The notes under the pieces are model-generated. The model saw nothing but the letters and a program-made list of their open reading frames with translations. It searched no databases and was not told the DNA's origin. From Mucilaginibacter frigoritolerans (GTDB lineage: Bacteria > Bacteroidota > Bacteroidia > Sphingobacteriales > Sphingobacteriaceae), in contig NZ_VLLI01000003.1 in assembly GCF_007830615.1 (NCBI RefSeq), positions 310,001 to 374,000 of the forward strand: 64,000 bases of DNA, given 5' to 3'. Each line of letters begins with the position of its first letter. Position 1 is the first letter of the stretch. This document shows positions 31,861 to 49,866 of this stretch, piece after piece. A program made the position numbers and the translations under genes.

Positions 31861-31868
31861 TATTTTTG
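31861..31868 (+). promoter_or_regulatory. -7 box (TATTTTTG) of pabB, leaderless spacing
   Basis: A perfect TAnnTTTG box whose last base is 4 nt before the GTG start at 31873. The predicted +1 is the G of the start codon. Confidence 0.45.
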
Positions 31869-31872
31869 CAGG

Positions 31873-33850: not shown

Positions 33851-33870
33851 AAGAATTTAGTAAAGTAAAA

Positions 33871-34539: not shown

Positions 34540-34567
34540 ATTACCGCAATAATAGTAAATATTTAAT

Positions 34568-34658
34568 GATTAGAGCTTAGTGAAAAGAGCTTAGTTATAT
34601 TTAACAAAGCTTTATGAAAACACCCGTTAAATATTAATATCCCTCACTAATCTTTAAC
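34568..34658. repeat. Inverted period-7 spacer element between nadC and plsY
   Basis: Left arm of 7-bp units GATTAGA/GCTTAGT (34568-34597), right arm in inverse orientation (34636-34658). The right arm contains the last codons of nadC, whose TAG stop is part of a GATTAG unit. Confidence 0.55.
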
Positions 34659-35501
34659 AATAACTGCTTTTAAGCTAAGGTCCAAACTCTTAACTGAATG
34701 TGTTAAGGCACCTACTGATATAAAATCAACCCCACAATCCGCATACTCGCGAATGTTGTCAATTGTTATACCTCCTGATGCTTCTGTAATAAATTTATTA
34801 TCAATAATTTTTACCGCTTTACGCAGCTCATCAAATTTAAAGTTATCAAGCAATATACGGTTTATACCACCTGTTTGCAAAACCTGCTGCAATTCATCAA
34901 GGTTTCTTACCTCAATTTCAATTTGAAGGTTTTTATTTTTCGCTGCCAGGTATTGATGTGTATTTTCAATAGCCTGCCTTATGCCACCCGAATAATCAAC
35001 ATGATTATCCTTTATCAATATCATATCATACAAACCAAAGCGGTGATTTACACCGCCGCCAATCCTTACGGCCCATTTTTCAAGGTAGCGTAAGCCGGGA
35101 GTAGTTTTCCGGGTATCAAGCACCTTTGTTTTGGTGCCTTGTAAAAGCCTTACAATCCGATGCGTGGTAGTAGCCACACCACTCATGCGTTGCATACAAT
35201 TAAGCACCAAACGTTCGGCCTTTAAAATGCTTTGTGCATCGCCTTCCACTTCCAAAACAATGTCGCCAGGCTTAATGTCTGCTCCATCATTTAAAAAAAG
35301 GGTTACTTTAAGTTGCTCATCAACAATACGGAATATTTCAACCGCCAGTTCAACACCGGCTAAAGTGCCACTATCTTTTACTAAAAGTTTTGCTTTACCT
35401 TTTGTACCGGCTGGTATAGTGGCCAATGAAGTGTGGTCGCCATCGCCAACATCTTCACTAAGTGAATTTATTATAAACTGATCAATAATTGATTTGTCCA
35501 A
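34647..35501 (-). CDS. nadC: Nicotinate-nucleotide (quinolinate) pyrophosphorylase
   Basis: 284 residues. SEDVGDGDHTSLATI (15-29), NCMQRMSGVATTTHRIV, DTRKTTPGLRYLEKWAVRIGGG and IDNIREYADCGVDFISVGALTHS are the NadC signatures, including the Arg/Lys residues that bind quinolinate and PRPP. It makes nicotinate mononucleotide for de novo NAD synthesis in the cytosol. The start is a TTG (35501): an in-frame stop lies two codons upstream and no better ATG exists, while MDKSIIDQFI matches the family N-terminus. nadA and nadB are not in the window. Confidence 0.93.
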   Translation of the reverse strand: MDKSIIDQFIINSLSEDVGDGDHTSLATIPAGTKGKAKLLVKDSGTLAGVELAVEIFRIVDEQLKVTLFLNDGADIKPGDIVLEVEGDAQSILKAERLVLNCMQRMSGVATTTHRIVRLLQGTKTKVLDTRKTTPGLRYLEKWAVRIGGGVNHRFGLYDMILIKDNHVDYSGGIRQAIENTHQYLAAKNKNLQIEIEVRNLDELQQVLQTGGINRILLDNFKFDELRKAVKIIDNKFITEASGGITIDNIREYADCGVDFISVGALTHSVKSLDLSLKAVIVKD

Positions 35502-35520
35502 ACCTTATAGATTTAAAGCC

Positions 35521-35528
35521 CAAAAGTA
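35521..35528 (-). promoter_or_regulatory. -7 box (TACTTTTG) upstream of nadC
   Basis: A TAnnTTTG match on the minus strand, 19 nt before the TTG start. It lies just outside the left arm of the neighbouring repeat. No -33 element is evident. Confidence 0.35.
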
Positions 35529-35542
35529 AAAACAATTTTCGT

Positions 35543-35673
35543 TGTGTCCATACTCTGTAGTTTTATTTAACAAGCCCAATTCTATTAAACCAGGATTATG
35601 ACTACAGTATATGAATTATCTATCGACTTAAAACTATGGACTATGGACCATCGACTATGGACTCCTTCCCCTC
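35543..35673. repeat. Inverted period-7 spacer element between DUF4783 gene and nadC
   Basis: The right part (35622-35673) holds units CTATGGA, CTATGGA, CCATCGA, CTATGGA; the left part (about 35543-35563) holds GTCCATA, CTCTGTA, the inverse form. It reaches to the stop codon of the DUF4783 gene. Confidence 0.6.
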
Positions 35674-35674
35674 C

Positions 35675-36073
35675 CTACTTCACCTTCTCCGTTTCTATTC
35701 GCATTTCAATTAGTTCAAAATGTTTATCTATTTGTTTCAGGGTGCAGGCTATACGGAAGGCACTCTTATCTGTATTCATCGTAATAACCCCAAAGTAATA
35801 ATTAGGATTAGAATTTACCCGGTGAAGCATTTTAACCAACCTCGGCTTATTTTCATTAAAAAACTTAGTCAAAACAAGCTCTGCCTGGGTTTTTGAATAA
35901 ACATTTTCTTCATTTAAAATGGAGATCTCAACGCTTGGAGCAAACATGGCCGACAGTGCATGCACATCACCTTGCTTAATTAAAGTGGCAACATTATCAA
36001 TCGGATCGGCAAATGTGCCCCCCGGAACCAGGTAGGAGATAAACAGCAATGGCAGGCAAAGTAGCTTTATCAT
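35675..36073 (-). CDS. Exported DUF4783 protein
   Basis: 132 residues with a signal peptide (MIKLLCLPLLFISYLVPGGTFA). The mature part has an NTF2-like cone pattern: IDNVATLIKQGDVHALSAMFAPSVEISIL, KTQAELVLTKFFNENKP and YYFGVITMNTDKSAFRIACTLKQI. This is the DUF4783 family of Bacteroidota, of unknown function, which I recall as a frequent neighbour of nadC as here. It is the first gene of the DUF4783-nadC-plsY-DUF2071 cluster and diverges from gpmI across a 251-bp region with a triple repeat. Confidence 0.8.
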   Translation of the reverse strand: MIKLLCLPLLFISYLVPGGTFADPIDNVATLIKQGDVHALSAMFAPSVEISILNEENVYSKTQAELVLTKFFNENKPRLVKMLHRVNSNPNYYFGVITMNTDKSAFRIACTLKQIDKHFELIEMRIETEKVK

Positions 36074-36216
36074 AACTATAGGACAACGAAAAAAACTGGA
36101 CGTTACTAAGTATTTGACATTCGATTATAGGTAAAATATGGCAAAATCTACACTAAAACATTCAACACTTTCATCAATTTACCGTACAAACAACAGTTTA
36201 TTTCCTTTTGAGTTTG

Positions 36217-36286
36217 GGGCACTAACTCAATTATTAGTTTTAATAATTGAGTTAATGCCCGGGCACAGGGGCATTAACTCAATTAT
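36217..36286. repeat. Three-arm inverted repeat between DUF4783 gene and gpmI
   Basis: Copy A (36217-36236) and copy C (36269-36286) are direct; copy B (36241-36260) is inverted. A-B is a 20-bp stem with one mismatch; B-C is a perfect 18-bp stem. The core is TTAACTCAATTAT, with a TGCCCGGGCA palindrome at the B-C turn. B can pair with A or with C but not both. There is no T-run. It sits 38 bp before the gpmI start and could be an operator or a switch. Confidence 0.6.
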
Positions 36287-36312
36287 AATATACCATATTA
36301 CAACGTTGCGTT

Positions 36313-36320
36313 TATATTTG
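36313..36320 (+). promoter_or_regulatory. -7 box (TATATTTG) of gpmI, leaderless spacing
   Basis: A perfect TAnnTTTG box ending 4 nt before the GTG start at 36325, so the predicted +1 is the start codon itself. Confidence 0.45.
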
Positions 36321-36324
36321 CATT

Positions 36325-37848
36325 GTGGAAAAACATAAAAAAATTGCATTAATAATTCTTGACGGCTGGGGATACGGCCGTAATGATGAGTCGAACGCTA
36401 TTGTGGCAGCCCAAACGCCATTCTTCGACTCCCTGATTAGTAACTACCCAAATTCAAAGCTGGAAGCATCTGGCACCGCTGTAGGTTTACCTGCCGGACA
36501 GATGGGAAACTCAGAAGTTGGCCACATGAACTTAGGTGCAGGCCGCGTAGTATACCAGGAACTTGGCCGCATACACAAAGCGGTTGAAGATAATGAACTA
36601 CCCGGTAACCCGGTATTAAAGGAAGCTTTTGAATACGCTAAACAAAGCGGTAAAAAGGTACACCTTATTGGCCTGGTATCTGACGGTGGTGTTCACTCAC
36701 ACATTAAACATATTAAAGGCTTATGCGATGCCACTAAAGTTTATGATTTAGATAAAGTATTTATCCATGCTTTTTTAGATGGACGTGATACAGATCCAAA
36801 ATCAGGCTTAGGCTTTATTACCGACCTGGAAGAATATATTGAAGGATCAAACATAAAAGTAGCTTCGGCAATTGGCAGATACTATGCTATGGACCGCGAT
36901 AATCGTTGGGAAAGAGTTAAATTGGCTTATGATCTGATGATTAATGGTGTTGGCGAACCCACCACTAGCGTTACCCAATCTATCAAAGAATCCTATTTAA
37001 AGGATGTTACCGATGAGTTTATAAAACCTATTGTACAGGTTGATGCTGAAGGCACCCCGCTTGCGGTAATTGAAGAAGGCGATGTTGTAATCTGCTTTAA
37101 CTTCAGAACAGACAGAGGGCGCGAAATCACCATCGCTTTAACTCAAAGGGCATTCCCTGAATATAATATGCATCCGCTTAACCTGCACTATATCACCATG
37201 ACACCTTATGATGAAACATTTAAAAATGTGAAAGTGGTGTTTGATAAGGATGATTTAACGCAAACCCTCGGTGAAATTTTACAGAATGCAGGCAAAAATC
37301 AGATTCGTATTGCCGAAACTGAAAAATATCCGCATGTTACCTTTTTCTTTTCGGGTGGCCGCGAGAAAGAATTCACCAATGAAAAACGCTTATTAGTGCC
37401 TTCACCAAAAGTGGCAACTTATGATTTACAGCCCGAAATGAGCGCCGAAGGGATTCGTGATGCCATTATTCCGGAGTTAAAGAGCGGATGGGCCGATTTT
37501 ATTGCACTTAACTTTGCCAATACCGATATGGTTGGCCATACCGGCGTGTTCAGCGCTGTGGTAAAAGCTGCCGAAACTGCCGATGCCTGCACTAAAGCGG
37601 TTGTTGAAACGGGTATTGCAAACGGTTATTCGTTCATCATCATTGCCGACCATGGTAATGCTGATTATATGATTAATGAAGATGGATCGCCAAATACGGC
37701 ACATACTACCAACCTGGTACCTTGTATAATTATTGATAGCGATGTTAAACAGGTAAAAGATGGCAAACTGGGTGATATTGCACCAACCATTTTGCATCTG
37801 CTTGGCGTTGCAATCCCTGAAAAAATGACCGGGAATGTATTGGTATAA
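36325..37848 (+). CDS. gpmI: 2,3-bisphosphoglycerate-independent phosphoglycerate mutase
   Basis: 507 residues with a GTG start. LILDGWGYG (Asp13) and MGNSEVGHMNLGAGR with catalytic Ser63 begin the phosphatase domain. The phosphotransferase domain holds LIGLVSDGGVHSHI, FLDGRDTDP, IGRYYAMDRDNRWER and FNFRTDRGRE; the second metal site uses NTDMVGHTG and ADHGNADYM. It interconverts 3- and 2-phosphoglycerate in glycolysis with two Mn ions. The last 14 nt overlap the following lipoprotein gene, implying translational coupling. Confidence 0.95.
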   Translation: MEKHKKIALIILDGWGYGRNDESNAIVAAQTPFFDSLISNYPNSKLEASGTAVGLPAGQMGNSEVGHMNLGAGRVVYQELGRIHKAVEDNELPGNPVLKEAFEYAKQSGKKVHLIGLVSDGGVHSHIKHIKGLCDATKVYDLDKVFIHAFLDGRDTDPKSGLGFITDLEEYIEGSNIKVASAIGRYYAMDRDNRWERVKLAYDLMINGVGEPTTSVTQSIKESYLKDVTDEFIKPIVQVDAEGTPLAVIEEGDVVICFNFRTDRGREITIALTQRAFPEYNMHPLNLHYITMTPYDETFKNVKVVFDKDDLTQTLGEILQNAGKNQIRIAETEKYPHVTFFFSGGREKEFTNEKRLLVPSPKVATYDLQPEMSAEGIRDAIIPELKSGWADFIALNFANTDMVGHTGVFSAVVKAAETADACTKAVVETGIANGYSFIIIADHGNADYMINEDGSPNTAHTTNLVPCIIIDSDVKQVKDGKLGDIAPTILHLLGVAIPEKMTGNVLV

Positions 37849-38392
37849 AACTACAAAATGGACAGGCTTTGCAATGTTATGCTGCATTATACTTTGCGGC
37901 ACGGCTTGCAAGCCTGACATTAAAGAAACCGGAGCCGCGCTGAAGTATTTTGACATTAAAGGATATTTTAGTGCCGATATTGCGCACCTGAATCATTTAA
38001 AGATCCAGGTGCTTAAAACAGTTTCTCACAACGGAACTACCGAAAGCAAAACAGTAAAAATTGACAACTGGGGGCAGGAATTCAACCTTTTTATAGATGC
38101 CGATATTAACAAACCTGCCTGGCAAAAAAGCTACACCGTTATAACTGACGACTCCCTTTTATTTTATAAAGCGATAGACCCTGAGCTTAAAATGCGCGAA
38201 ATGATTATAAAGCGCGATAATAAGCAAAAGGTAAAGTGGATATTGATTTTTAACCGCACTAAAAACATCCTGTATACCACTACAGAAAAACTATCCTATT
38301 ATCCGGATTCGCTTTATTTAATTGAAAAAGATCAGCATGTAAGGTTAATGGGCAATAATCATTACCGCATTGAGGGGGTAATAAAGCACTAA
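37835..38392 (+). CDS. Small unrecognised lipoprotein coupled to gpmI
   Basis: 185 residues from an ATG that overlaps the gpmI 3' end by 14 nt. A second in-frame ATG at 37874 would give a shorter signal. The lipobox LCGTAC puts the lipidated Cys at 25. The mature part begins KPDIKETGAALKYFDIKGYFSADIAHL and has a beta-rich body (VKWILIFNRTKNILYTTTEKLSYYPDSLYLI) that I recall from conserved Bacteroidota lipoproteins of unknown function. Its stop is directly adjacent to the stop of the convergent TPR gene. Confidence 0.7.
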   Translation: MYWYKTTKWTGFAMLCCIILCGTACKPDIKETGAALKYFDIKGYFSADIAHLNHLKIQVLKTVSHNGTTESKTVKIDNWGQEFNLFIDADINKPAWQKSYTVITDDSLLFYKAIDPELKMREMIIKRDNKQKVKWILIFNRTKNILYTTTEKLSYYPDSLYLIEKDQHVRLMGNNHYRIEGVIKH

Positions 38393-39022
38393 TTAGCGGT
38401 GTGCAAGCACCTCGTCTAATTTCAGTTTGGATTGATCAATGAGGGTAGATATATCGGCCCGATTTGGATTATCAGTCAAAACCCTTTCAAAATCAGAGAT
38501 AGAGGCTTTTAATGAATTAATACCGCGGTTTTTATCGTAATACTTGCCGGTAGTTTGCAATTTAAAGAGGCCGTACTCCCTGTAAGCTATGCCACGCGTT
38601 TGGTAATATTTGTTCTGGGTATCGTTCGGATTAATAGATATGGCTTTTGTAAGGTCATAAATTGCCCCTATTAAATACTTCTCCTTATCTGCCGGCGAAA
38701 GCTGATTATCCTTGCCCAAATAGCTTTTATCCCGTGCCCGGTAATAATAGGCGGTGGCATCTGTTGGGTTTATTGAAATTTCTTTGGTGTAAGCGGCTAT
38801 TGATTTTTTGTAGTTTTCGCTGTGGTAATAAGAATATCCCAGCATCCACAGCGCATTAGCATTGGTTGAGTCAATTAAACAAGCCTTTTCAAGCTGTGCC
38901 ACTGCTGCCTTAAAATCGCCATCCATTAATGCTTCCTGTCCTAATTTTACATATGCGTTTTGGGCATAAGTATTTTCAAGGGAAGTAATAATCAGGAAGG
39001 ATATGATAACCGATAACTTCAT
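38393..39022 (-). CDS. Exported TPR protein
   Basis: About 209 residues from the ATG at 39022, with signal peptide (MKLSVIISFLIITSLENTYAQ). TPR motifs: AYVKLGQEALMDGDFKAAVAQLEKACLID, ANALWMLGYSYYHSENYKKSIAAYTKEISI, ATAYYYRARDKSYLG...AIYDLTKAISI and a last degenerate one ending DFERVLTDNPN. TPRs bind protein partners; no enzymatic domain is present, so it is probably a periplasmic scaffold. Monocistronic; its stop abuts the lipoprotein stop of the opposite strand. Confidence 0.8.
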   Translation of the reverse strand: MKLSVIISFLIITSLENTYAQNAYVKLGQEALMDGDFKAAVAQLEKACLIDSTNANALWMLGYSYYHSENYKKSIAAYTKEISINPTDATAYYYRARDKSYLGKDNQLSPADKEKYLIGAIYDLTKAISINPNDTQNKYYQTRGIAYREYGLFKLQTTGKYYDKNRGINSLKASISDFERVLTDNPNRADISTLIDQSKLKLDEVLAHR

Positions 39023-39392
39023 CAAATGCTTTGCGGTGTAACAAATTAGTATACAATTAACTGATATAAATTAAAAATATTATGCCGGTCAATAGTTTTA
39101 CTTTAAATTATTTTTTAATTCATCAAATAACGGGATGCTATTATATGACTTTTTTTCATCTTTACCCAATAATTTATGACTAATTTGTAAAAACATCATA
39201 CATTTGCAATTTACATATAATCAGCGTGTTACAACACAAATACAAATCCTGCTAACTATTATCATATATTGGCACAGGTCTTGAACCAATACTATTTATC
39301 AGGAATACCCGCTAAATAACCTACAGCCATAAGAGCTTGTTTATTTACAGGCTGACAATATGACGTTTTTAATCATACATAAAAGGTAGTTG
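39023..39392. other. Non-coding divergent gap upstream of lon
   Basis: AT-rich spacer between the TPR gene (minus) and lon (plus). The only promoter-like element I see is TACATTTG at 39199-39206 on the plus strand, which would give lon a leader of about 180 nt. No CIRCE-type heat-shock repeat, no open reading frame. Confidence 0.5.
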
Positions 39393-41876
39393 ATGAGTTT
39401 TGATCCATTTGATTTTAAAAGTGCTTTACCCGTAATAAACGAAGAATCTGAATTTTTTCCGTTAATGTCGTCAGAAGACGAAGAGGAAATGAATAACGAA
39501 GCTTTGCCCGAAATTTTGTCTATACTTCCACTGCGCAATACTGTTTTATTTCCGGGGGTAGTAATCCCCATTACGGTTGGCCGTGATAAATCAATAAAGC
39601 TGATACGTGATGCCAATAAGGGCAGCCGTATGATTGGGGTAGTTTCGCAACAGGACGTGGGGATTGAAGACCCTAATTTTAGCCAATTGAATTCAGTTGG
39701 CACTATTGCTCTTATTATTAAGATGCTGCAAATGCCCGATGGTAACACCACCGTGATATTACAGGGCAAAAAGCGTTTTATTTTAAAAGATGAGGTACAG
39801 AGCGTACCTTATATTAAGGCCACAATTGAGCCTTTTAAAGAAATTAAACATAAAGACGATAAAGAATTTAAAGCCATGGTATCATCCATTAAGGATATGG
39901 CCATGAGCATTATTCAGTTATCACCTAATATTCCGAGCGAGGCCGGCATTGCCATCCGCAACATTGAAAGCACTTCATTTTTGATCAATTTTATATCATC
40001 AAACATGAATGCCGATATGGCAGCAAAACAGCGATTGCTGGAAGAAGCCAGTTTACGCACCAGGGCAAACCTTGTTTTGGAGCACCTTACACTTGATTTG
40101 CAAATGCTGGAACTAAAAAACCAGATTCAGAGTAAAGTAAGGGTCGATCTGGATAAACAACAACGCGATTATTTTTTAAATCAGCAGCTAAAAACTATAC
40201 AGGAAGAATTGGGCGGTAACTCGCCTGATCTGGAGATCGATAGTTTAAAATTGCGTGCTTTAAAAAAGAAATGGGGCAAAGAAGTTAAGGACCATTTTGA
40301 TAAAGAAATGGAAAAATTGGCACGCACCAATCCGGCAGCGGCTGATTATTCTGTACAGATCAACTACCTGGAACTATTGGTTGACCTGCCATGGAATGAA
40401 TTCACCAAAGATAATTTCGACCTTAAACGCGCCCAAAAGGTTTTAGATAAAGATCATTTCGGACTAGATAAGGTTAAACAACGCATTATTGAATACCTGG
40501 CTGTGCTTAAATTAAAGCACAACATGAAAGCGCCTATACTTTGCTTGGTTGGCCCTCCGGGTGTGGGTAAAACATCATTAGGTAAATCAATAGCAAAGGC
40601 CCTGGGCCGTAAGTATGTACGTATGGCTTTGGGCGGCATCCGCGATGAAGCTGAAATACGTGGCCACCGTAAAACCTATATTGGCGCTATGCCCGGTCGT
40701 ATTATACAATCGGTAAAAAAAGCCGGTGCAGCTAACCCTGTATTTATACTGGATGAGATTGATAAAGTAGGTAATGATTTCAGAGGCGATCCATCATCAG
40801 CTTTGCTGGAAGTGCTCGATCCTGAACAGAACGGTACTTTTTACGATCATTATGTGGAGATGGACTTTGATCTGTCGAACGTGATGTTCATTGCTACAGC
40901 AAACTCACTAAGCTCTATTCAACCAGCCCTGCTTGACCGTATGGAGATTATTGAGGTAAACGGATATACCATTGAAGAAAAAGTTGAAATTGCCAAACAA
41001 CATTTAGTGCCCAAACAACGCGAGGCACATGGCTTAAAAACCAAGGATGTTGCGGTAAAGCCTGAAATATTGGAAAAGCTTATTGTTGATTATACCCGCG
41101 AATCGGGCGTTAGGGCATTGGAGAAAAAGATAGGTTCACTGATAAGAGGTGTGGCTAAAAGCATAGCTATGGAAGAACCATATAATGCAACCGTAAGCAA
41201 AGCCGATGTCGAAAAAATATTAGGTGCGCCTATATTTGATAAAGATTTATACGAAGGTAATGATGTTGCAGGTGTAGTAACCGGCCTTGCATGGACATCA
41301 GTAGGCGGCGATATATTGTTTATTGAAGCCAGTTTAAGCCCAGGCAAGGGCCGTTTAACACTAACCGGCAGCCTTGGCGATGTAATGAAAGAATCAGTAA
41401 CCATTGCTTTGGCCTATCTGCGTGCCCACTCATCCTATTTTGATATTGATGTTAAACTGTTTGACCAATGGGATATACATGTACACGTTCCGGCAGGTGC
41501 CACGCCTAAAGACGGACCATCGGCAGGTATAACTATGCTAACGGCGCTCACATCAGCTTTTACCCAGCGTAAAATTAAGCCTCATTTAGCTATGACAGGC
41601 GAGATTACCTTACGCGGCCGCGTTTTGCCTGTTGGCGGTATAAAAGAAAAAATACTGGCAGCCAAACGTGCCAATATCAAAGAAATAATTTTATGCGCAT
41701 CAAATAAAAAAGACATCCTTGAAATTAAAGAAGATTACATAAAAGATCTTCAATTTCATTATGTTACCGATATGCGTGAGGTAATTAATCTTGCCCTGTT
41801 AAACGAAAAGGTAGTTAACCCTATTGACCTAACAGTAAAAGAAGACGTTGCCCCGGCAATAAGCCACCAATACTAG
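39393..41876 (+). CDS. lon: ATP-dependent Lon protease
   Basis: 827 residues from the ATG at 39393 (a TTG sits one codon upstream). N-terminal substrate-binding LON domain (about 45-240, [19 protein letters not shown]), an AAA+ module with Walker A GPPGVGKT (387-394) and Walker [10 protein letters not shown], then the protease domain with the Ser710-Lys753 dyad (DGPSAGI, GGIKEK). It degrades unfolded and regulatory proteins in the cytosol. Compared with E. coli Lon, it has an acidic N-terminal extension of about 40 residues ([16 protein letters not shown]), common in Bacteroidota. Confidence 0.96.
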
Positions 41877-41889
41877 TTTTAAAGTATTA

Positions 41890-41922
41890 GTTGTCGATTT
41901 GCGCTTTAAGCAAATCGATAAC
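41890..41922 (+). terminator. Stem-loop after lon
   Basis: Thirteen-bp arms (41890-41902 and 41910-41922) with one G-U pair valid on the plus strand. No T-run follows, so it may protect the lon 3' end rather than terminate. Confidence 0.45.
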
Positions 41923-42104
41923 TAACTAACTATAAATAAAAACCTTGTAATTACCAAGTAATTATTAAAACCTTATCATAAGTTACTCTTTTTTCATGTA
42001 AATTGAAACCTTTTTATTAACCCTAGCGTAATACGATCCGTTATCATAGTTTACCAATCCAATTATGGTATTAGTTAAGCAATCCCACATATTTTGATTT
42101 GATT

Positions 42105-42656
42105 ATGAAGAAAGCTATTGCTCTAAAAGCCATCCCGCTACTTTTATTTATTTCTTTTCACTTATGTGCAAGTGCCCAAAGCCTGGAAGAAGATACAGTA
42201 AAGCGCGACACAACAACTAAAGTAAAAGGCAGCAGTCCAAAATCAGTATATTTGGAAGTGGGCGGAGCCGGGCTGGCACTCACTTTAAACTTCGACAAAC
42301 GTTTTGGCAGTGGTTCTGATAAATGGGGATACAGGGTTGGGGCAGGTTATTATAACACGGGGTCAAACTCTGTATTTTCGGTTCCTTTGCAAATCAACTA
42401 TCTGTTCAGCATAAATCACAGTACATCCAGTTATATTGAAGGCGCTTTCGGTACCACCTTCTTAAACTCAAAAGGAAGCCCTAATGGTACCTTTTTTGAA
42501 TTTGATAACATAACCGGCTTTTGCGGAAACGCGTCCATAGGCTACCGGTATCAGCAGGAAAATGGCGGCATAAACTTCCGAATTATATTTGACCCCATTT
42601 TTTATGATGAAGGAGTACTGTATGAAGGCGGTTTAAGTATTGGCTATACCTTTTAA
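42105..42656 (+). CDS. Small exported outer-membrane beta-barrel-like protein
   Basis: About 183 residues from the ATG at 42105. Signal peptide MKKAIALKAIPLLLFISFHLCASAQ, then a Thr/Lys-rich stretch and a barrel-like series of amphipathic strands (SVYLEVGGAGLALTLNFDKRF, WGYRVGAGYYN, VPLQINYLFSI, SSYIEGAFGTTFL, GNASIGYRYQ), ending GGLSIGYTF with the C-terminal Phe of outer-membrane barrels. I cannot name the family. Single gene between lon and an LpxR-like gene. Confidence 0.72.
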   Translation: MKKAIALKAIPLLLFISFHLCASAQSLEEDTVKRDTTTKVKGSSPKSVYLEVGGAGLALTLNFDKRFGSGSDKWGYRVGAGYYNTGSNSVFSVPLQINYLFSINHSTSSYIEGAFGTTFLNSKGSPNGTFFEFDNITGFCGNASIGYRYQQENGGINFRIIFDPIFYDEGVLYEGGLSIGYTF

Positions 42657-42664
42657 ATACATTA

Positions 42665-42690
42665 AAGTCTGACTTTGGATAAAGTCAAAC
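42665..42690. terminator. Weak stem-loop after the barrel gene
   Basis: AGTCTGACTTT and AAAGTCAAACT flank GGAT with one mismatch, 9 bp after the stop. There is no good T-run on either side, so terminator function is doubtful. Confidence 0.3.
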
Positions 42691-42875
42691 TTCACTTATA
42701 AAACATTAACCAACCTATCCTTATCTTATCACCTTAACTTCTCCCTTCACTGGCTGATAATTTACCCTTAATCCAAACACAGACGCTGTACGAGTAAAAA
42801 AGCTCAAAATTTGCTTTGAATTCGACATTTTGTTTCAGCTAATTATTACTTTAGTAACTTATATTAAAGGCCCTG

Positions 42876-43838
42876 ATGAAATTCAAACTTTTTTTACTGT
42901 TGCTTTGTCTTATTGGCACTGCCAACTTGTTTGCCCAGTCGCATAGTACTGAAATCGGCGTTCAAACGGACAATGATTCATACCTTGCACAAGGATCTGA
43001 CCGGTATTATACCGATGGAATTTTTATTTATTACAGGCATGCTTTAAAAGTTAAAGGTAAGGATACTGCTACTTTAGCCAATAAAGTATTAGGGTTTGAA
43101 ACAGGGCAGAAAATATTCAATCCACAATCAGGCTATGTACCCGGCCCACAATATATCGATAGGCCATTTGCAGGTTATACCTACATAGGTTCTACCTTAA
43201 ATTTTTTATATAAAAACGAAAGCAATATTAAAGTCAGTGCGCAATTAGGCGTAGTAGGCCCGGCATCAGGTGCAGAACAGGTACAAACATGGGTACACAA
43301 AACATTCGGTTTTTACACACCCGGCGGATGGCAGTACCAGATTCAGAATAACTTTGAATTAAACCTTTCAGCTGCTTATAACAAATTGCTTGCGCGTGCA
43401 TCATGGGTGGATGTATCCTTTACAAGTTATTTAAATTTAGGCAACGGTTTCTCAGGCGCGGGCCTTGGCCCATTGATTAGGTTGGGAAATTTTAACCAGT
43501 TATTTAACTCAGTTAGTACACAAAGCACAGCCACAAAAAATAACAGCATCAAAAAATTGCACAAAAACGAATTATACCTGTATTATCAACCCCTTATAAA
43601 CTATGTGGCCTATGATGCTACCATACAAGGCGGTTTATTTGATAATCATAGCGACCCAAATAGCCAGGAAATTACTAAAGATAAAGAGCCATTTATTTTC
43701 AGCAACCAGATAGGTTTAGCTTTTACCGCAAACCGCTTTACATTTGATATTGCAGCCATTTTCCATACATTGGATGATAAAGAAATGGTACAATCGCACC
43801 AATGGGGAAGCGTAACGGGGATGTACAGGTTTAAATAG
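42876..43838 (+). CDS. LpxR-family lipid A deacylase-like outer-membrane protein
   Basis: 320 residues with signal peptide (MKFKLFLLLLCLIGTANLFAQ). The mature N-terminus EIGVQTDNDSYLAQGSDRYYTDGIFI matches the LpxR/DUF2219 signature, with Asn33-Asp34 corresponding to the catalytic Asn-Asp pair and the following YTDG. His141 (TWVHKTFG) lies where the active-site His is expected. The protein ends in a Phe-rich strand (GSVTGMYRFK). LpxR removes the 3'-acyloxyacyl chain of lipid A in the outer membrane; activity in this group is inferred only from similarity. Confidence 0.8.
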   Translation: MKFKLFLLLLCLIGTANLFAQSHSTEIGVQTDNDSYLAQGSDRYYTDGIFIYYRHALKVKGKDTATLANKVLGFETGQKIFNPQSGYVPGPQYIDRPFAGYTYIGSTLNFLYKNESNIKVSAQLGVVGPASGAEQVQTWVHKTFGFYTPGGWQYQIQNNFELNLSAAYNKLLARASWVDVSFTSYLNLGNGFSGAGLGPLIRLGNFNQLFNSVSTQSTATKNNSIKKLHKNELYLYYQPLINYVAYDATIQGGLFDNHSDPNSQEITKDKEPFIFSNQIGLAFTANRFTFDIAAIFHTLDDKEMVQSHQWGSVTGMYRFK

Positions 43839-43846
43839 CGGTAGAT

Positions 43847-43939
43847 GCCCCACCTAATCCTCCCAGGTAGGGAGGACTTAAAAAATAAACTCGGGCGAAG
43901 CAAAAAGTCTCCCCTTCCGGGGGAGATTTAGAGGGGGCT
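43847..43939. repeat. REP-like palindromic element
   Basis: A 93-bp imperfect palindrome with ends GCCCC...CTAATC and GATTTAG...GGGGGC. It contains two GC-rich hairpins, CCTCCC/GGGAGG (43859-43875) and TCTCCCC/GGGGAGA (43908-43926). The pattern matches an intergenic palindrome I recall as very frequent in Bacteroidota genomes. It fills the space between convergent genes and may act as a bidirectional terminator. Confidence 0.75.
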
Positions 43940-43940
43940 A

Positions 43941-44357
43941 CTAATCATTATCTCCCGGCCTTATTTTCCGGTTTTCTTTTTTGGCTGATGTAATGCGTTT
44001 ATTTTCCAACCGGGCGGCCTTGGCAGCTTTGCTTACTTTGGTAGCCTTGCGTGCCTTGGGTTTATGCAATGCCCGGGTTAGCAAAAGAACCAATCTTTCA
44101 ACAGCTTTTTCTTTGTTAAGGTATTGACTGCGCTCTTCATCACAAATTACCTGTACTAAACCGTCCTTATTAAAACGGGATTGCAATTTCTCATTCAGTA
44201 AAGCCTTTTCCTCATCTGTAAACAACAGCGAATTATTTACCGAAAACAATAGCTCCACTTTACTGGATACCTTATTTACATTTTGTCCGCCCTTACCGCC
44301 ACTGCGCGATGTTTTATAAGTTATTTCTTTCTGAAGGTCGACCTTATTAAAATTCAT
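43941..44357 (-). CDS. arfB: Alternative ribosome-rescue hydrolase ArfB
   Basis: About 138 residues from the ATG at 44357. The release-factor-like catalytic motif GGQ lies at 23-25 in SGGKGGQNVNKVSSKVEL, followed by LNEKLQSRFNKDGLVQVICDEERSQ. The C-terminal tail is basic (KPKARKATKVSKAAKAARLENKRI), as in ArfB, where it probes the empty mRNA channel. It frees stalled ribosomes by hydrolysing peptidyl-tRNA. It is shorter than RF1/RF2 and lacks the stop-codon-reading domain. A TATTTTTG box lies 3 nt before the ATG, suggesting a leaderless mRNA. Confidence 0.92.
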   Translation of the reverse strand: MNFNKVDLQKEITYKTSRSGGKGGQNVNKVSSKVELLFSVNNSLLFTDEEKALLNEKLQSRFNKDGLVQVICDEERSQYLNKEKAVERLVLLLTRALHKPKARKATKVSKAAKAARLENKRITSAKKENRKIRPGDND

Positions 44358-44360
44358 GGC

Positions 44361-44368
44361 CAAAAATA
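44361..44368 (-). promoter_or_regulatory. -7 box (TATTTTTG) of arfB, leaderless spacing
   Basis: A perfect TAnnTTTG box on the minus strand, separated from the ATG by GCC only. The predicted +1 is the A of ATG. Confidence 0.45.
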
Positions 44369-44373
44369 GTTAT

Positions 44374-44466
44374 TTGTTGATTGAGTTGATTAAGTGAGTG
44401 GTTATAAAATATTACCCTGTAAATTCAGCCATTCACTTAATCAACCCTTCACCTAATCAACTAATT
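44374..44466. repeat. Inverted period-8 spacer element between arfB and cmk
   Basis: Left arm of 8-bp units GTTGATTG, AGTTGATT, AAGTGAGT (44374-44406); right arm of the complementary kind in inverse order (44430-44466). It occupies nearly all of the divergent spacer. Confidence 0.65.
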
Positions 44467-44485
44467 TTTCTTAATTTAGTTGCCC

Positions 44486-45157
44486 ATGAGTGATCAGATT
44501 ATTGTAGCCATTGACGGCTATTCTTCGTGTGGTAAAAGCACACTGGCTAAGGCTTTAGCTAAAAAGCTCCATTTTATTTATGTTGATAGCGGTGCAATGT
44601 ACAGGGCTGTGGCGCTGTATTTTTTGAGGAACAATATCGACCTTAATAATCACGATCAGATTATGGAGGCACTCAAAAAAATCCACCTTAATTTTCATTC
44701 ACGCGATTATGAAACGCATATCACTTTAAACGATGAAGAAGTATCTGCCGAAATAAGGCTGATGCCTGTTTCTGAAACTGTAAGCGCAGTATCGGCCATT
44801 AAAGAAGTACGTACCGAAATGGTGAAACAGCAACAACGCATGGGTCGCTCAAAAAACATCGTAATGGATGGGCGTGATATTGGCACTGCAGTTTTCCCGG
44901 ATGCTGCAGTTAAAATTTTCATGACCGCTGACCCCAAAGTAAGGGCAGAACGCCGTTATAAAGAACTGTTGCCTAAGAACCCTGATATAACCCTCGAAGA
45001 AATATTTGAAAACATAGCACATCGCGATTATCAGGATACTACCCGCAAGGAAAGCCCGCTGGTAAGGGCACATGATGCCATTATATTGGATAACACTGAT
45101 CTTAATCCCGATGAGCAATTGCTATTTGCATTGAGCAAGGTAGAACCGTTTCTTTAA
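44486..45157 (+). CDS. cmk: Cytidylate kinase
   Basis: About 223 residues from the ATG at 44486 (a TTG 2 codons upstream is less likely). P-loop GYSSCGKSTLAK near the N-terminus, YVDSGAMYRAVALYFL, and VMDGRDIGTAVFPDA are the CMP-binding and catalytic signatures; RERRYKELL-type lid residues appear as RAERRYKELLPKNPD. It phosphorylates CMP and dCMP to diphosphates in the cytosol. It faces the dCMP deaminase gene, another pyrimidine nucleotide enzyme, across a repeat-filled spacer. Confidence 0.94.
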   Translation: MSDQIIVAIDGYSSCGKSTLAKALAKKLHFIYVDSGAMYRAVALYFLRNNIDLNNHDQIMEALKKIHLNFHSRDYETHITLNDEEVSAEIRLMPVSETVSAVSAIKEVRTEMVKQQQRMGRSKNIVMDGRDIGTAVFPDAAVKIFMTADPKVRAERRYKELLPKNPDITLEEIFENIAHRDYQDTTRKESPLVRAHDAIILDNTDLNPDEQLLFALSKVEPFL

Positions 45158-45245
45158 TTTACAGTTTTAGAATTAAGATTTTAAGAAGACTTTATTGATT
45201 TCAACTAAACTCCTATCTCAAACCTCTAATCACTACTCCTCAAAC
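45158..45245. repeat. Period-7 spacer element between cmk and dCMP deaminase
   Basis: Right part: units AACTAAA, CTCCTAT, CTCAAAC, CTCTAAT, CACTACT, CCTCAAA (45203-45245); left part: looser AGATTTT-like units of inverse sense. It contains the last codons of the deaminase gene (FEE, stop TAG). Confidence 0.5.
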
Positions 45246-45685
45246 TTCACAGCACTAACCCCAAAACGGTTCAGGAAATCAACACCCTCGTCGCTGGCCA
45301 GGCCTTTGTAAGCAGCGTATGACTTGTCAAAAAACACCTTTTTAACGCCTGCAGAGAAGATAAGCCTTGCACAGGGCAGACAGGGCGATAAAGTGGTATA
45401 AAGTGTAGCACCTTCCAAATTAGCCCCATTCTTCACCGCATACAATATGGCATTCTCTTCGGCATGAAGGGCAAGTGAGCAGCTCCCTTTCGAATCGCGT
45501 GCACAGCCCGTTGTCGGCCACTCCTCATCGCAGTTATGGGTACCCGCCGGCGGACCATTATACCCGATAGATATGATCCGCGTGTCTTTGGCTAAAACGG
45601 CACCGACCTGGGCCTTAACGCAATGTGAGCGTTTGGCCAGGTCGGTTGCCAGATTCATAAAAATATGGTCGAAACTTAATTTCAT
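45233..45685 (-). CDS. dCMP deaminase (ComE-like)
   Basis: 150 residues of the zinc cytidine/deoxycytidylate deaminase fold. His74 and Glu76 in LHAEENAI and Cys102/Cys105 in SPCLPCARLI bind zinc and activate water. An extra Cys/His group (HNCDEEWPTTGCARD, about 50-63) is typical of dCMP deaminases with a second zinc site. It converts dCMP to dUMP for thymidylate synthesis. The start codon lies inside one arm of a period-8 repeat and the stop inside a period-7 repeat. Confidence 0.92.
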   Translation of the reverse strand: MKLSFDHIFMNLATDLAKRSHCVKAQVGAVLAKDTRIISIGYNGPPAGTHNCDEEWPTTGCARDSKGSCSLALHAEENAILYAVKNGANLEGATLYTTLSPCLPCARLIFSAGVKKVFFDKSYAAYKGLASDEGVDFLNRFGVSAVKFEE

Positions 45686-45768
45686 TAGTTCATTAGTTCA
45701 CTGGTTTATTAGTAATGTATCGAACAATTGCCCCAATGAACTAATGAACAATTGAACTAATGAACAAA
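45681..45768. repeat. Inverted period-8 spacer element upstream of dCMP deaminase
   Basis: Left arm TTCATTAG, TTCATTAG, TTCACTGG, TTTATTAG (45681-45713), right arm of inverse units AATGAACT, AATGAACA (45734-45768). The left arm contains the deaminase start codon, and the right arm ends 5 bp before the permease stop. Confidence 0.65.
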
Positions 45769-45772
45769 AATA

Positions 45773-47407
45773 TTAATGCCCTCCTGAGGCTTGAACGTGA
45801 TCAAGGTCAATACCTTGTTTAAGCAGTTCGCGTCCTACTTTCCATGCAAAATATGCCAGGTAAGTAAAGCCCATTACCGGAACAATGTACGAGAAGTGGA
45901 TACCACTCATACCCGCAATCAGGTTATTACTACCATCAGCAATTTTACCTTGTAGTGGTGGTATAATTGATCCGCCTAAAATCATCATAATTAAAAATGC
46001 TGAACCCTGGCTGGTATATTTTCCTAAACCGGTAATAGATAGAGCGAAAATTGATGGCCACATAATTGAGCAGCATAAACCACCGCTGATAAATGAGAAG
46101 GTTGCCACTCTGCCGGTGGTAAATAAACCTACCAGCATAAAAATAACACCTAATATACCCAAAACAGATACGGTGCGGGTTGGCTTTTGCTGACCAATAA
46201 AGAAAGCAACCACCAAAACAGCAACACATACTGCATAAATGTAAAGATTACTTACATCAACACCGGTTAATGCATTGGCAAGTAATACAACACCAAATGC
46301 TAAAAACGGAATAATAACATATAACACATTTTTAGTTGTTTTTGAAAGATTAAAAGCACCAATAGAGCCTGCAAAACGGCCTATCATTAAGCTACCCCAA
46401 TATAAAGAAATGTAAGGAGCTATCTGCGATTCTTTAAATGAACCAAACTCAGGTGTTTTTAATAATGAACCCATGTTACTTTGTATGGTTACCTCGGTAC
46501 CTACATAAGTAAAGATAGCTATCATACCTAAAATTAACTGAGGATATTGCATGGCGCCCCAGCCTTCTTTGTTCTTTTTAGCAGCAAAAATAGTGCTGAT
46601 AAGCGTAATTAAAATAATACCCAATGACGCATAAACAAAGTATTGACTTGGAATTGAAGTCCATTTGCTTAAAGGAGTGGCAGCAAGAATCAATAAAAAT
46701 GCAATGAATATAACCAAAAGCGGTGCGTTTGCTTTTTGGCTCGATTCGATTTTCTCATCACTGGTAACCTTCGGAAGGTTAGATACCCAAAAGAATAAAG
46801 CAACTGCCAGGAACAACCCTGCTAAAATGTAATACAAATTATTAATAGATGATATTTCTACTGCGGCACCTGCTGCCTGAGCTTTTGCAGAACCAAACAA
46901 TACAATACTCACTACAATTGGGCCTAACAAAGCACCTATATTGTTAACACTACCCGCAAAGTTTAATCGGTTTGAACCGGTTTCAGGTGGACCCAAAACT
47001 ATCACAAATGGATTGGCTGCAGTTTGTTGTAACGAGAAACCTAATGCAATTACGAAAAATGAACTTAATATAAACCCAAAAGATCCGGAGTTTACTGCAG
47101 GGATCATTAACAGTGCGCCTACAGCTGATAATATCAAGCCAAAAACAATACCGTTTTTATAACCTATTTTATTAAGTATATCAACCTTTGATGCTGCTGA
47201 TGCAAAGTACAATATCAGCGACCCGATAAAATAACCACCATAAAATGTAAAATCAATTAACTGCGATTCAAACTGCGTTAAGCTGAAATGCGTTTTGCAA
47301 AATGGTATAAAAATACCGTTAGAGGCCGCAAGAAAGCCCCAAAAAAAGAATACAGTAATAATAGTGTACAACGCGGTGCCGTAACTTTTAGAGTTTTTTT
47401 GTTCCAT
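45773..47407 (-). CDS. FHS-family sugar:H+ symporter (MFS)
   Basis: 544 residues with 12 or more membrane spans. The N-terminal half ([45 protein letters not shown]) and [37 protein letters not shown] are hallmarks of the fucose/glucose-galactose permease (FHS) group, with the Asn residues used in sugar binding. Longer than E. coli FucP (438) because of extra loops and spans in the middle. It should import a monosaccharide at the inner membrane. It diverges from another sugar transporter at 47600. Confidence 0.88.
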
Positions 47408-47599
47408 TATTAATTAGGTTTCTACGAAAGATTTTTTTAAGACTCTAAACATAACTATTTTTTATAATTCTGTCATAAATTTTTAATTAATTAACCTACT
47501 GTGTGTTTTCATTTTCTTAAACGATAATGGCTTTCTGTTTTATTTATCGGCAACTGTTATGTACATTGCATGGTAAACCTTTATATACCAATTATAAAA

Positions 47600-48928
47600 A
47601 TGAAAAAAAATTCTGTTATGGCCTGGGCCATGGTAGTGGCCCTTGGTGGCTTTTTATTTGGTTTTGACACCGCAGTTATATCCGGTGCCGAAAAATCCAT
47701 ACAACAGTTCTGGCACCTATCAGTATTCGAGCATGGGCTTACTATCTCCATTGCACTTATCGGTACCGTCATCGGCTCATTACTGAGTTCAAGGCCATCT
47801 GATTACTTCGGCAGAAAAAACACTTTATATTTTGTAGCTATTGCTTATTTCATATCATCCATAGGCACTTCACTGGCCGACAACTGGTATATTTTTTTAA
47901 TCTTCAGGTTTGTTGGTGGCCTGGGTGTGGGCACTTCGTCCGTAACCGCGCCTATTTACATTTCTGAGATTTCGCCCGCAGGGCGTCGTGGCACATTGGT
48001 TGGTTTATTTCAGTTTAACATTGTTTTGGGGATACTGATCTCCTACCTGTCTAACTATTTAATTACTCAATTTGGCGAAGCCTCCTGGCGATGGATGTTA
48101 GGTGTACAGGCTTTTCCTGCTGCATTATTCCTGGTGCTGATTTATTTTATACCCGAAAGTCCCCGCTGGCTTATTCTTAAAAAAGGTCAAATCAACCAGG
48201 CTTTGGCTATACTACAAATCATCAATCCATTAAACAGCAATGAAGAGCTTAAAGCCATTCAAAATTCAAAGCTGGAAAATACCGAAGGCAATGCCGATAA
48301 TTTATTTTCGGGGCAATACAAGAAGCCCATTATATTGGCAATGCTGTTTGCATTTTTTAATCAGGTATCTGGCATTAACGCTATTATTTATTATGCGCCC
48401 CGTATTTTTGAAATGGCCGGGCTTGGCGCACACTCTTCCCTGTTATCAACAGTAGGCATCGGCTTAATTAATTTTATTTTCACCTTGCTGGCCATTAACA
48501 TTATTGATAAAGTTGGCCGCAAGCTTTTAATGATGATTGGCTCCTTTGGGTTAATAGCATCGCTATTTTTGGTGGCATATACCTTTTACGCTAAAAACTT
48601 TAGCGGCTACGCTGTGCCGGTTTATATGATGATCTTTATTGCATTCTTCGCCTTTTCGCAAGGCGCCGTTATATGGGTATTTATATCCGAGATTTTCCCT
48701 AACCAGGTACGTGCCAAGGGACAAACCTTAGGCAGTTCTACCCATTGGATAATGGCCGCTCTGATCGCTTTTAGTTTCCCGTTTTTTGCAGAAAAGCTGG
48801 GTGGAGCTATCACTTTTTCCTTTTTTGGATCGATGATGGTGCTGCAACTCATTTTTGTGTGGAAATGGATGCCCGAAACAAAAGGAAAATCGCTCGAGCA
48901 AATTGAATCGAACATAATTATGCATTAA
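47600..48928 (+). CDS. Sugar porter of the major facilitator superfamily
   Basis: About 442 residues from the ATG at 47600 (A-rich context); an upstream ATG at 47570 would add MVNLYIPIIK. Twelve spans with full sugar-porter motifs: GFLFGFDTAVISGA in TM1, RPSDYFGRKN, FVGGLGVGTSSVTAPIYISE, PESPRWLI, FNQVSGINAIIYYAP, GRKLLMM and PETKGKSLEQIE at the end. Similar to xylose/arabinose/glucose:H+ symporters. The monosaccharide cannot be deduced. Divergent from the FHS permease, so both may respond to the same sugar signal across the 47408-47599 spacer. Confidence 0.9.
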   Translation: MKKNSVMAWAMVVALGGFLFGFDTAVISGAEKSIQQFWHLSVFEHGLTISIALIGTVIGSLLSSRPSDYFGRKNTLYFVAIAYFISSIGTSLADNWYIFLIFRFVGGLGVGTSSVTAPIYISEISPAGRRGTLVGLFQFNIVLGILISYLSNYLITQFGEASWRWMLGVQAFPAALFLVLIYFIPESPRWLILKKGQINQALAILQIINPLNSNEELKAIQNSKLENTEGNADNLFSGQYKKPIILAMLFAFFNQVSGINAIIYYAPRIFEMAGLGAHSSLLSTVGIGLINFIFTLLAINIIDKVGRKLLMMIGSFGLIASLFLVAYTFYAKNFSGYAVPVYMMIFIAFFAFSQGAVIWVFISEIFPNQVRAKGQTLGSSTHWIMAALIAFSFPFFAEKLGGAITFSFFGSMMVLQLIFVWKWMPETKGKSLEQIESNIIMH

Positions 48929-49070
48929 TTATTAGCTTTTAATAGTCAATTTTACAATACCATCAAAAAAATTTAATTAATTAATCACAATTTTAAGTTT
49001 GGTTGTTTAAGATATAAAATTGCATATTCGTGCTGCCTTTTTTAATTAATGTGCACTTAAGTCTGACTTA

Positions 49071-49730
49071 ATGATAGAAGCTGTTATTTCGGGTATTGGA
49101 TTTGGATTAGTGCTCACGTTTTTGACCGGCCCGGTATTTTTCGCATTGATAAAAACCAGTATTGACAAGGGATTTCAAGCAGGCGTAGCCCTGGCATTGG
49201 GAGTAGTTTGCAGCGACATGGTATTTGTTGGCGCCATATTATTTGGTTCACAATATTTTGATGTTACCGCTAAGGATAAAATATACGCAGGCGTTGTAGG
49301 TAGTATTATTTTATTTGTAATAGGTATTTACTACATGTTTAAAAAAGCGCAAACAAGCTATAATACTACCGTACCCGTACCTACCAGGCTGCATAAAGCC
49401 GGGTATTTTTTTAAAGGATTTTTGATGTGTATCTTTAATCCTACCATACTTTTCCATTGGACCATTGTTATTGGCGCTGCCAGTACCGTATACCACCAGG
49501 GCGTACACAACCGGTCGGCCAAAATTGCCGTTATGTTTTTAACGGTATTAATTGTTCAGTTTGGATTAGATACCACCAAGGCTTTTTATGCCGATAAACT
49601 GCGCGATAAAATCTCTGTAAAATTCATCCACCGTTTAAATGAAGTTGCCGGTATTGCCTTAATTATTGCATCACTGGTATTACTGGATAAACTGGTAACA
49701 CATTTTGTATTCTCGGCACCTTCGTCTTAG
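49071..49730 (+). CDS. LysE-family exporter
   Basis: 219 residues with about six membrane spans. The N-terminus IEAVISGIGFGLVLTFLTGPVFFALIKTSIDKGFQAGVALALGVVCSD is the LysE/RhtB family signature (GPVFFALIKTS in place of the classical GPGP), and NPTILFHWTIVIGAAS follows in the second half. These proteins export amino acids or small solutes across the inner membrane; substrate not deducible. The TAG stop belongs to the first unit of a period-7 repeat. Confidence 0.87.
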   Translation: MIEAVISGIGFGLVLTFLTGPVFFALIKTSIDKGFQAGVALALGVVCSDMVFVGAILFGSQYFDVTAKDKIYAGVVGSIILFVIGIYYMFKKAQTSYNTTVPVPTRLHKAGYFFKGFLMCIFNPTILFHWTIVIGAASTVYHQGVHNRSAKIAVMFLTVLIVQFGLDTTKAFYADKLRDKISVKFIHRLNEVAGIALIIASLVLLDKLVTHFVFSAPSS

Positions 49731-49866
49731 TCTTAAGCTCTTAGTTTGGTGTCTTAAGTCTTACTTGCATTTTTTATAAAAGGAAAAAGTCTTAAGCTTG
49801 ATTGGGAAATGATTGATTTCATCTCACAAACAGACTTAAGACTTCGAACTGTAGACTAAAGACTAA
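49726..49866. repeat. Inverted period-7 spacer element between lysE-like gene and purF
   Basis: Left arm units GTCTTAG, TCTTAAG, CTCTTAG, TTTGGTG, TCTTAAG (49726-49767), right arm of inverse units AGACTTA, AGACTTC, GAACTGT, AGACTAA, AGACTAA (49832-49866). About 65 bp of unrelated sequence separates the arms. Confidence 0.65.

Follow-up and report, generated by a model that had tools for sequence, protein, structure and literature searches.

Dispersed intergenic hairpins of diverged 7- and 8-bp units in Mucilaginibacter and the change of their repeat words at orthologous gaps

Introduction

What builds an intergenic spacer from two opposed arms, each a run of slightly diverged units of fixed length? 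The question is raised by positions 44374 to 44466 of a 64,000-nucleotide stretch (hereafter, the window) of the 5.66-Mb genome of Mucilaginibacter frigoritolerans. The original prediction held that at least eight spacers of the window follow this one construction rule without sharing sequence, three with 8-bp and five with 7-bp units, and that such a pattern speaks for local generation or for selection of a structured RNA, and against an ordinary insertion family. An excess of heptamers in the spacers of bacteria is an old observation, for which polymerase slippage has been proposed as the origin, as summarized in one account (PMC4692102).

Results

Periodic arms in the window spacers

We scored the period of each spacer as a z value against 500 dinucleotide shuffles of that spacer, and its inverted arms as the z value of the RNA fold against 200 shuffles. 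The spacer at 44374-44466 has a left arm on the plus strand (44374-44401) of 8-bp units of the types GTTGATTG, AGTTGATT, and AAGTGAGT, without C, a loop (44402-44428), and a right arm on the minus strand (44429-44466) of inverted 8-bp units without G (lag-8 z 3.1, fold z -8.4). A second 8-bp hairpin combines a plus-strand left arm of TTCATTAG units (45681-45712) with a minus-strand right arm of inverted 8-bp units CTAATGAA (45733-45768; lag-8 z 8.1, fold z -7.2), and a third, of the GTTGATTG family (29386-29468; lag-8 z 3.9, fold z -4.3), begins directly after a stop codon. Two spacers with 7-bp units gave both signals: 18423-18565, of the GATTAG family (lag-7 z 3.2, fold z -2.4), and 49726-49866, with the word TCTTAAG and convergent genes on either side (lag-7 z 4.2, fold z -4.5). 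The CTATGGA array at 35543-35673 is periodic (lag-7 z 3.0) and forms a weak hairpin (fold z -1.9). At 34568-34658, which carries GATTAG/CTTAG-like words, the fold was clear (z -4.3) and neither lag 7 (z 0.8) nor lag 8 was significant, while 45158-45245, a 7-bp array of CTAATC type on its right side (lag-7 z 2.7), has unpaired sides and no hairpin fold (z +1.3). Thus the common rule held in full for six of the eight spacers: the expected period was present in seven (all three with 8-bp units and four of the five with 7-bp units, the exception being 34568), and two opposed arms were present in seven (35543 weakly), the exception being 45158. In the outer 32 nt of all eight, G was at least as frequent as C on the left and C at least as frequent as G on the right, with ties at 35543 (left) and 45681 (right).

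Three of the predicted ranges, 18423, 34568, and 45158, overrun the 3' end of a neighboring ORF by 22, 12, and 13 bp, placing that ORF's stop codon inside the right arm; at 18423 the ORF is 18544-19581. In relatives, array units seem to cross the stop codon of the upstream gene at L049 (near 550) and at L063 (near the gap matching L042 6678), so the last codons there look array-derived. Separately, 43839-43940 of the window is an ordinary GC-rich palindrome, GCCCCACCTAATCCTCCC...GGGGGAGATTTAGAGGGGGC, and the same gap of the relative X4EP1 holds a GATTAG-type array.

Periodicity across the genome

ORFs were called in 464 kb of the genome with a simple codon score; because this is a heuristic of our own in place of a published gene finder, the boundaries of gaps are approximate. 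Autocorrelation in 252 of 264 spacers (40-1000 bp) gave z values of 8.1, 6.1, and 6.3 at lags 7, 14, and 21, with lags 3 and 4 also elevated in the same set (6.6 and 7.2), and coding DNA peaked solely at multiples of 3. We defined an array as 14 of 20 matches at a given lag, a cut that lets through roughly 3 false hits at each lag when applied to 260 spacers. In those 260 spacers we counted 34 lag-7 arrays against 3.3 in shuffles (shuffle maximum 9), 10 lag-8 arrays against 2.9 (maximum 7), and 26 lag-14 arrays against 3.2, with lags 5, 6, 9, 10, 12, and 13 at background. Coding DNA held 2.2 arrays per same length, no excess over the 3.3 of spacer shuffles. As anticipated, then, spacers carry an excess at lags 7 and 8 over shuffles and coding DNA carries none. 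In 898 spacers including 80 relatives, arrays numbered 156 against 10.1 at lag 7, 81 against 9.7 at lag 8, and 32 against 9.1 at lag 9. We conclude that a 7-bp tandem unit is over-represented between genes and not within them, as in known heptameric repeats. Apart from this, the spacers of this genome (G000) have an excess at lag 11, with 12 arrays where shuffles give 2.7, for example of AGTTTTGAAAC-type words.

Polarity and gap orientation

The arrays follow one polarity, being mostly G-rich when read inward from either gene. Arrays were present in 167 of 838 spacers (60-600 bp, seven genomes); left-half arrays were G-rich in 82 cases and C-rich in 14, against 20 and 99 for right-half arrays. 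Spacers with several skewed arrays showed the order gc in 36 and ggc in 2, versus cg in 1, gg in 2, and cc in 2 (g, G-rich; c, C-rich), a count that leaves aside the 94 spacers with a single skewed array and the 30 with unskewed arrays among the 167. Array-free spacers were less biased (left side: 312 G-rich, 315 C-rich; right side: 240 G-rich, 385 C-rich). Compared with letter-shuffled words, the consensus words are enriched in TCA, CAA, AGT, AGA, and AAG.

Arrays occupied 119 of 517 co-directional, 28 of 129 convergent, and 20 of 192 divergent gaps (p 0.0008, an optimistic value because orthologous gaps of sister genomes were counted apart). The window genome alone showed little orientation effect (co-directional 23/162, convergent 4/44, divergent 5/54).

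The words are dispersed families

The original prediction saw no sequence shared among these spacers; searches with individual words contradict this, as a given word turns up at many places in a single genome. We labeled words as A (AGTTGATT-type 8-mers), B (GATTAGAG), C (AGTTTGC/AGTTGGC), F (GTCATTA, 7 or 8 bp), H (GTCCATA/GTCGATA), J (GTTCATA, 7 bp, or GTTCATTA, 8 bp), Q (AGTATCA), and R (AGTCAAG/AATCAAG). The 15-letter pattern GTCSATRGTCSATRG, from the CTATGGA word of 35543, has 90 matches in the window genome and is present in 47 of 60 Mucilaginibacter genomes, with 0-142 overlapping matches each against 0-4 for the reversed control. Its sister word GTTSATRGTTSATRG has 45 matches in the window genome and occurs in 54 of the 60 (0-293 matches), and a stringent pattern built on the window's GTTGATT word finds 7 sites in the same genome. 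Counts of GTCSATRGTCSATRG and GTTSATRGTTSATRG are weakly correlated across genomes (Spearman 0.27), single genomes having 8/249, 20/0, 43/5, and 0/81 matches, but also 142/180. Exact matches to the Q word GTATCAAG (GTATCAAGTATCAAG) number 41, 45, and 109 in three sister species, 42 and 28 in two more, and at most 11 in seven genomes; 10 of 22 have none. Many of the word matches listed are plus-then-minus pairs tens of bases apart, and others are single in an exact search. We conclude that each of the four words searched belongs to a dispersed family whose number of matches is specific to the genome. The argument for local generation from absent shared sequence therefore fails.

Across the phylum, a three-unit pattern spanning the GTCSATRGTCSATRG and GTTSATRGTTSATRG words occurs in 28 of 296 genomes and 15 of 139 genera, in two of which the reversed control is as frequent as perfect arrays. 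The reversed control pattern reaches up to 83 matches in some other Bacteroidota genomes (G191, G187, G172, G168, and G106), where other heptamer words seem multiplied. In the window genome, G000:C4:98690-98774 is a long perfect GTCCATA array with 11 overlapping matches, resembling a VNTR.

Anatomy of the Q family

Most Q copies, at unlinked loci, have arms of four units in the constant order AGTATCA AGTAGYT AGTATCA AGTATCA. As the inner 13-15 nt served as search key, an unbiased comparison is limited to the outer 15 nt; these have a mean identity of 71% in 38 copies of one genome, and Q thus shares with MITEs terminal inverted repeats common to its dispersed copies. The loops are mostly unrelated: 5 of 190 pairs exceeded z 3 when both orientations were compared with edges cut (flanks 3.7%). 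With one orientation and conserved edges included, 8.4% of pairs did so (flanks 1.1%). In the 38-copy comparison, 12 of 703 loop pairs exceeded z 4 against 4 in the null, which softens the view that Q loops are wholly unrelated. Three cross-species pairs with clearly related interiors (z 8.0, 7.6, and 5.4) are probably orthologues. A loop length of 36-45 nt was found in 11 of 20 copies, and the inner ends can be told apart in many copies, one reading AGAYTTT and the opposite one AGAC or a similar sequence.

The arms of a Q copy resemble each other more than permuted arms do, an identity reached by 18 of 10000 permutations for 15 of 20 copies, by 158 of 10000 for all 20, and by 380 of 20000 in a larger set (32 of 38 copies). 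This covariation is modest and lies mainly in one C/T position (10 shared against 6.2 expected), and at the innermost 7 nt the two arms are less alike than under permutation (9999/10000).

Different words in the same gap

We then classified the arms of three gaps by hand-typed word lists, and for this reason added word-free tests; here arfB is our name for a release-factor-like gene with an RF-1 domain, cmk encodes cytidylate kinase, and dcd is a deaminase gene. At the divergent arfB-cmk gap, at least one arm was classed in 54 of 73 genomes. With short lists the two arms bore the same word in 38 of the 43 genomes with both classed (shuffle mean 23.3, maximum 34 in 5000), and with longer lists in 32 of 40. 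The AA and CC states of this gap require at least nine changes on a quick 68-row tree of the flanking genes, and the A/C state differs between the sisters L011/L013 and L010/L012. The dcd-next gap, in 70 genomes, had both arms F in 26, B in 11, and J in 8, with 10 mixed or one-sided and 15 unclassed on both sides; among the latter are four gaps of only 11-14 bp in printed genomes (L005, L016, L033, and L037). Arms agreed there in 45 of 46 classed cases. At cmk-dcd, 36 of 73 gaps were unclassed, and of 13 with both arms classed 7 agreed. Word use is gap-specific, arfB-cmk using mainly A and C, and dcd-next F, J, and B. A short insert (TCGCTTCGCT, AGCGAAGCGA, or a near variant) lies within one arm of the F-type hairpins at dcd-next of L026, L038, L040, L048, L056, and L062.

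The word-free test compared the left arm with the reverse complement of the right, within the same genome and across permuted genomes. At the two gaps arfB-cmk and dcd-next the score was 24.4 against 19.7 permuted (65 spacers) and 34.6 against 22.5 (61 spacers), and none of 5000 permutations reached it at either. Therefore, the two arms change together between species at these gaps.

Swaps and unit changes between close relatives

Between the window genome and X4EP1 (83.5% nucleotide identity), words are kept at 29386 and 44374. The 35502/35543 gap has the CTATGGA word in the window genome and CTATGAA and TAATGAC words in X4EP1, and the 45681/45686 gap has TTCATTAG in the window genome and GGTCATT/AATGACC words in X4EP1. 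At 49726-49866 the right arm is conserved and the left arm has a different unit order. Whole units are also gained and lost: at 78856, about 15 kb past the window, X4EP1 has the longer left and right arms (320 vs 239 bp), and L011 and L013 have 12 and 6 exact TTAGTCA units in the same gap.

By eye, six whole-hairpin swaps were seen in 89 orthologous spacers from 14 near pairs, some sharing a genome, a count that covers the diverged spacers shorter than 260 bp that were printed. Some swaps are clean and equal in length (92 vs 92 bp), and in L062/L067 the flanks are near-identical right up to the swapped hairpin. Three sister species with 131, 135, and 134 shared gaps had different heptamer words in at least 10 of 32 printed gaps (by eye), and of the gaps occupied in both members of a pair, an automated comparison scored the word as changed in 9/26, 15/26, and 11/23. 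Its cut is lenient and may overcall change, since the null contains same-word pairs. That cut was passed by 0 of 5 gaps in G365/G366 (93.6%) and by 0 of 3 in the window pair G000/G060; in G365/G366, the F-to-B swap of L062/L067 counted as occupied on just one side, since its B arms do not reach the array threshold. Occupancy itself persists in the trio (odds ratios 35, 36, and 15; 12, 21, and 7.3 without word-conserved gaps), and persistence may partly reflect which gaps tolerate inserts. Some gaps alternate between heptamer hairpins and ordinary palindromes (trio gaps 62, 78, 141, and 153). Ordinary long palindromes (CGTCATTGCGAGGTACGAAGCAATC, TGTCATGCTGAGGCAC, TGTCATCCTGAACAGAGTGAAGG) lie in G000 at C1 83923, 98008, and 137545 and at C6 227973 and 257697, and comparable palindromes occur in the same gaps as heptamer hairpins in relatives.

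Orthologous spacers thus fall between the outcomes envisaged at the start: they are often unrelated in word, yet are again periodic and inverted.

Discussion

We give an even chance to the reading that these spacers are dispersed hairpin-repeat families of diverged 7- and 8-bp units, each with its own word, and that the hairpin of a gap is likely replaced whole by a copy from elsewhere in the genome, probably via template switching. Copying from another locus is a likely source of the in-place exchange. A hairpin would stall replication, the nascent strand would switch to another hairpin with a common short edge, and the gap would gain a new word; slippage would alter the number of units, and template switching from arm to arm would keep the arms alike. 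Such elements are probably non-autonomous, and searches for PF01797 and PF00078 identified no enzyme that would move them. No copy event linking a donor to a recipient was caught. The mostly unrelated Q loops count against recent copying of whole cassettes, which would predict related loops, and gap-specific word use counts against free exchange, which would not predict it. Proximity-biased spread was not seen: over nine stretches, neighboring gaps shared no words beyond chance (lowest, 87 of 2000 shuffles). A bolder version, which we consider unlikely, treats gene gaps as hairpin slots in which a process that recognizes shape and periodic arms, and not sequence, overwrites words at many gaps, so that words would sweep a genome like alleles and each species would come to have its own vocabulary.

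A serious if doubtful alternative is that the hairpins are MITE-like elements, with the word as terminal inverted repeat moved by some transposase, tolerant gaps being hit again while old elements decay or are deleted. The strong differences in match counts among genomes fit this, as do the distinct inner ends of many Q copies, the 36-45-nt loops of 11 of 20 copies with a few of them related, and nested hairpins seen by eye in the loops of L055, L030, and L053. It would have to explain, however, why one unit rule and one polarity are common to many words, why some swaps are clean at equal length, and how a gap of 11-14 bp would be hit repeatedly, which seems unlikely unless the site is special. 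No target-site duplication was noticed at loci read by eye, and a PF01797 search of the genome (PF01797 and PF00078 being the families searched as movers) gave no Y1 transposase. REP elements moved by RAYT transposases are an explanation we find barely credible: like REPs, the hairpins are palindromic, extragenic, and mostly in co-directional and convergent gaps, as far as one REP paper describes them (PMC3733652), but PF01797 had 0 matches among 13 candidates scored in this genome, versus matches in 5 of 14 control genomes, and the arms are at least 28 bp of tandem units and not a tagged palindrome of 20-40 bp. A RAYT/IS200 mover encoded in this genome is thereby excluded. Nor did other candidate engines find support. 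Cleavage of hairpin tips by SbcCD was rejected: nothing in this genome scores above the SbcD cut-off, and a match exists in only 19 of the 89 genomes of its class. The absence of SbcD may let palindromes survive without being special to the genus. Telomerase-like templated end addition, which the G-rich inward polarity would fit, was rejected as well, because PF00078 gives one reverse transcriptase only. This sole match (G000:C14:162333-163631; L189 2333-3631) lies near RHS-like genes, its C-terminal part matches no Pfam family at the cut used, and we take it to be group-II-intron-like.

Selection for RNA or DNA hairpins at gene ends, through mRNA 3' end protection, termination, or supercoiling, with presence kept and sequence free, would account for occupancy that persists while words change and for the better-than-shuffled folding of seven of the eight spacers (35543 weakly); the rarity of arrays in divergent gaps (20/192 vs 119/517 and 28/129, with the optimistic p of 0.0008 and little effect in the window genome alone) points the same way. 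It is nevertheless improbable. The divergent arfB-cmk gap has a classed arm in 54 of 73 genomes, some genomes have an 11-14 bp gap instead of a hairpin at dcd-next, and selection leaves tandem units and genome-wide vocabularies unexplained. A scan for intrinsic terminators (GC-rich stem, short loop, T-run; loops of 3-8 nt) found none in six spacers within 29000-48999, and no known RNA family was found in the window at gathering scores. The structured-RNA part of the original prediction is not supported: elements also lie in divergent spacers, if more rarely, and no T-run hairpin was found in the six spacers scanned.

Still less probable, to our mind, is purely local generation, by which random seeds grow through slippage and inter-arm template switching into hairpins, and common words reflect coincidence or the common descent of neighboring spacers. 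Changes at the scale of units are real (12 vs 6 TTAGTCA units; 320 vs 239 bp), some gap-specific words lie one or two changes apart (AGTCATT, AGTGATT, AGAGATT, and AGTTCATT, an adjacency judged by eye), and a single template switch can create a stem, according to one report on such mutations (PMC8794818). But the same word stands at tens of loci in one genome and at none in others, match counts that largely refute this explanation, and the Q units keep their order in most copies at unlinked loci. What survives of the earlier proposal is local change unit by unit; what does not is local generation in place of a repeat family.

Related arrangements have been described elsewhere. The tandem heptanucleotides of Calothrix, named STRR, comprise several 7-bp words per genome, as here, and we know of no description of inverted arrangement or word swapping for them. 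A MITE of Porphyromonas gingivalis, also of the Bacteroidota, is reportedly a small inverted-repeat element with an internal minisatellite of 23-bp units, and quasipalindrome mutations are said to be a related template-switch phenomenon at single loci. Among the heptameric repeats that Rehm et al. 2015 report are GGGAATC of Xanthomonas and GGGGA(C/T)T of Nostoc, with mention of three tandem heptanucleotides of a Calothrix strain (PMC4692102). The Xanthomonas repeats resemble ours in unit length, intergenic site, convergent pairing of copies (here, gc in 36 vs cg in 1), shortage in divergent gaps, and variability; as that account describes them (PMC4692102), they are of one G-rich word type, whereas here each genome has many A/T-rich words and 8-bp words too, words are replaced at orthologous gaps, and vocabularies are genome-specific. 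G-tracts capable of forming G-quadruplexes, as in Xanthomonas, are lacking in words such as AGTCCAT, AGTTCAT, and AGTATCA, which have no GGG (read from word lists); a few GC-rich words exist here (trio gaps 77 and 155). The TAACTGA repeats reported by MacGregor 2015 from Beggiatoaceae, Cyanobacteria, and five Bacteroidetes are likewise mostly intergenic 7-bp direct repeats and differ mostly by 7-nt indels between two close Cyanothece strains, but in that account they are a single word in direct arrays that mostly lie immediately before start codons, the main genome holding one inverted case (PMC4679880). REP/BIME sequences are dispersed extragenic palindromes found mainly downstream of genes, as here, and differ in the GTAG or CGTC tags, the RAYT link of the GTAG type, and the absence of tandem units from their description (PMC3733652). 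Template-switch mutations make and mend hairpins, keeping two arms alike, creating stems, and changing loops; they are described there for single loci, whereas the exchange proposed here is among dispersed families (PMC8794818). For word replacement at orthologous gaps we found no precedent in the open-licence literature searched.

A genus with many words, close sister species, and swaps at the same gap is a setting in which slippage, template switching, and transposition give different, checkable predictions. If in-place exchange is true, it would mean fast, sequence-blind copying in spacer DNA, and it would confound regulatory-element discovery, phylogenetic footprinting, and studies of promoter evolution in the Bacteroidota.
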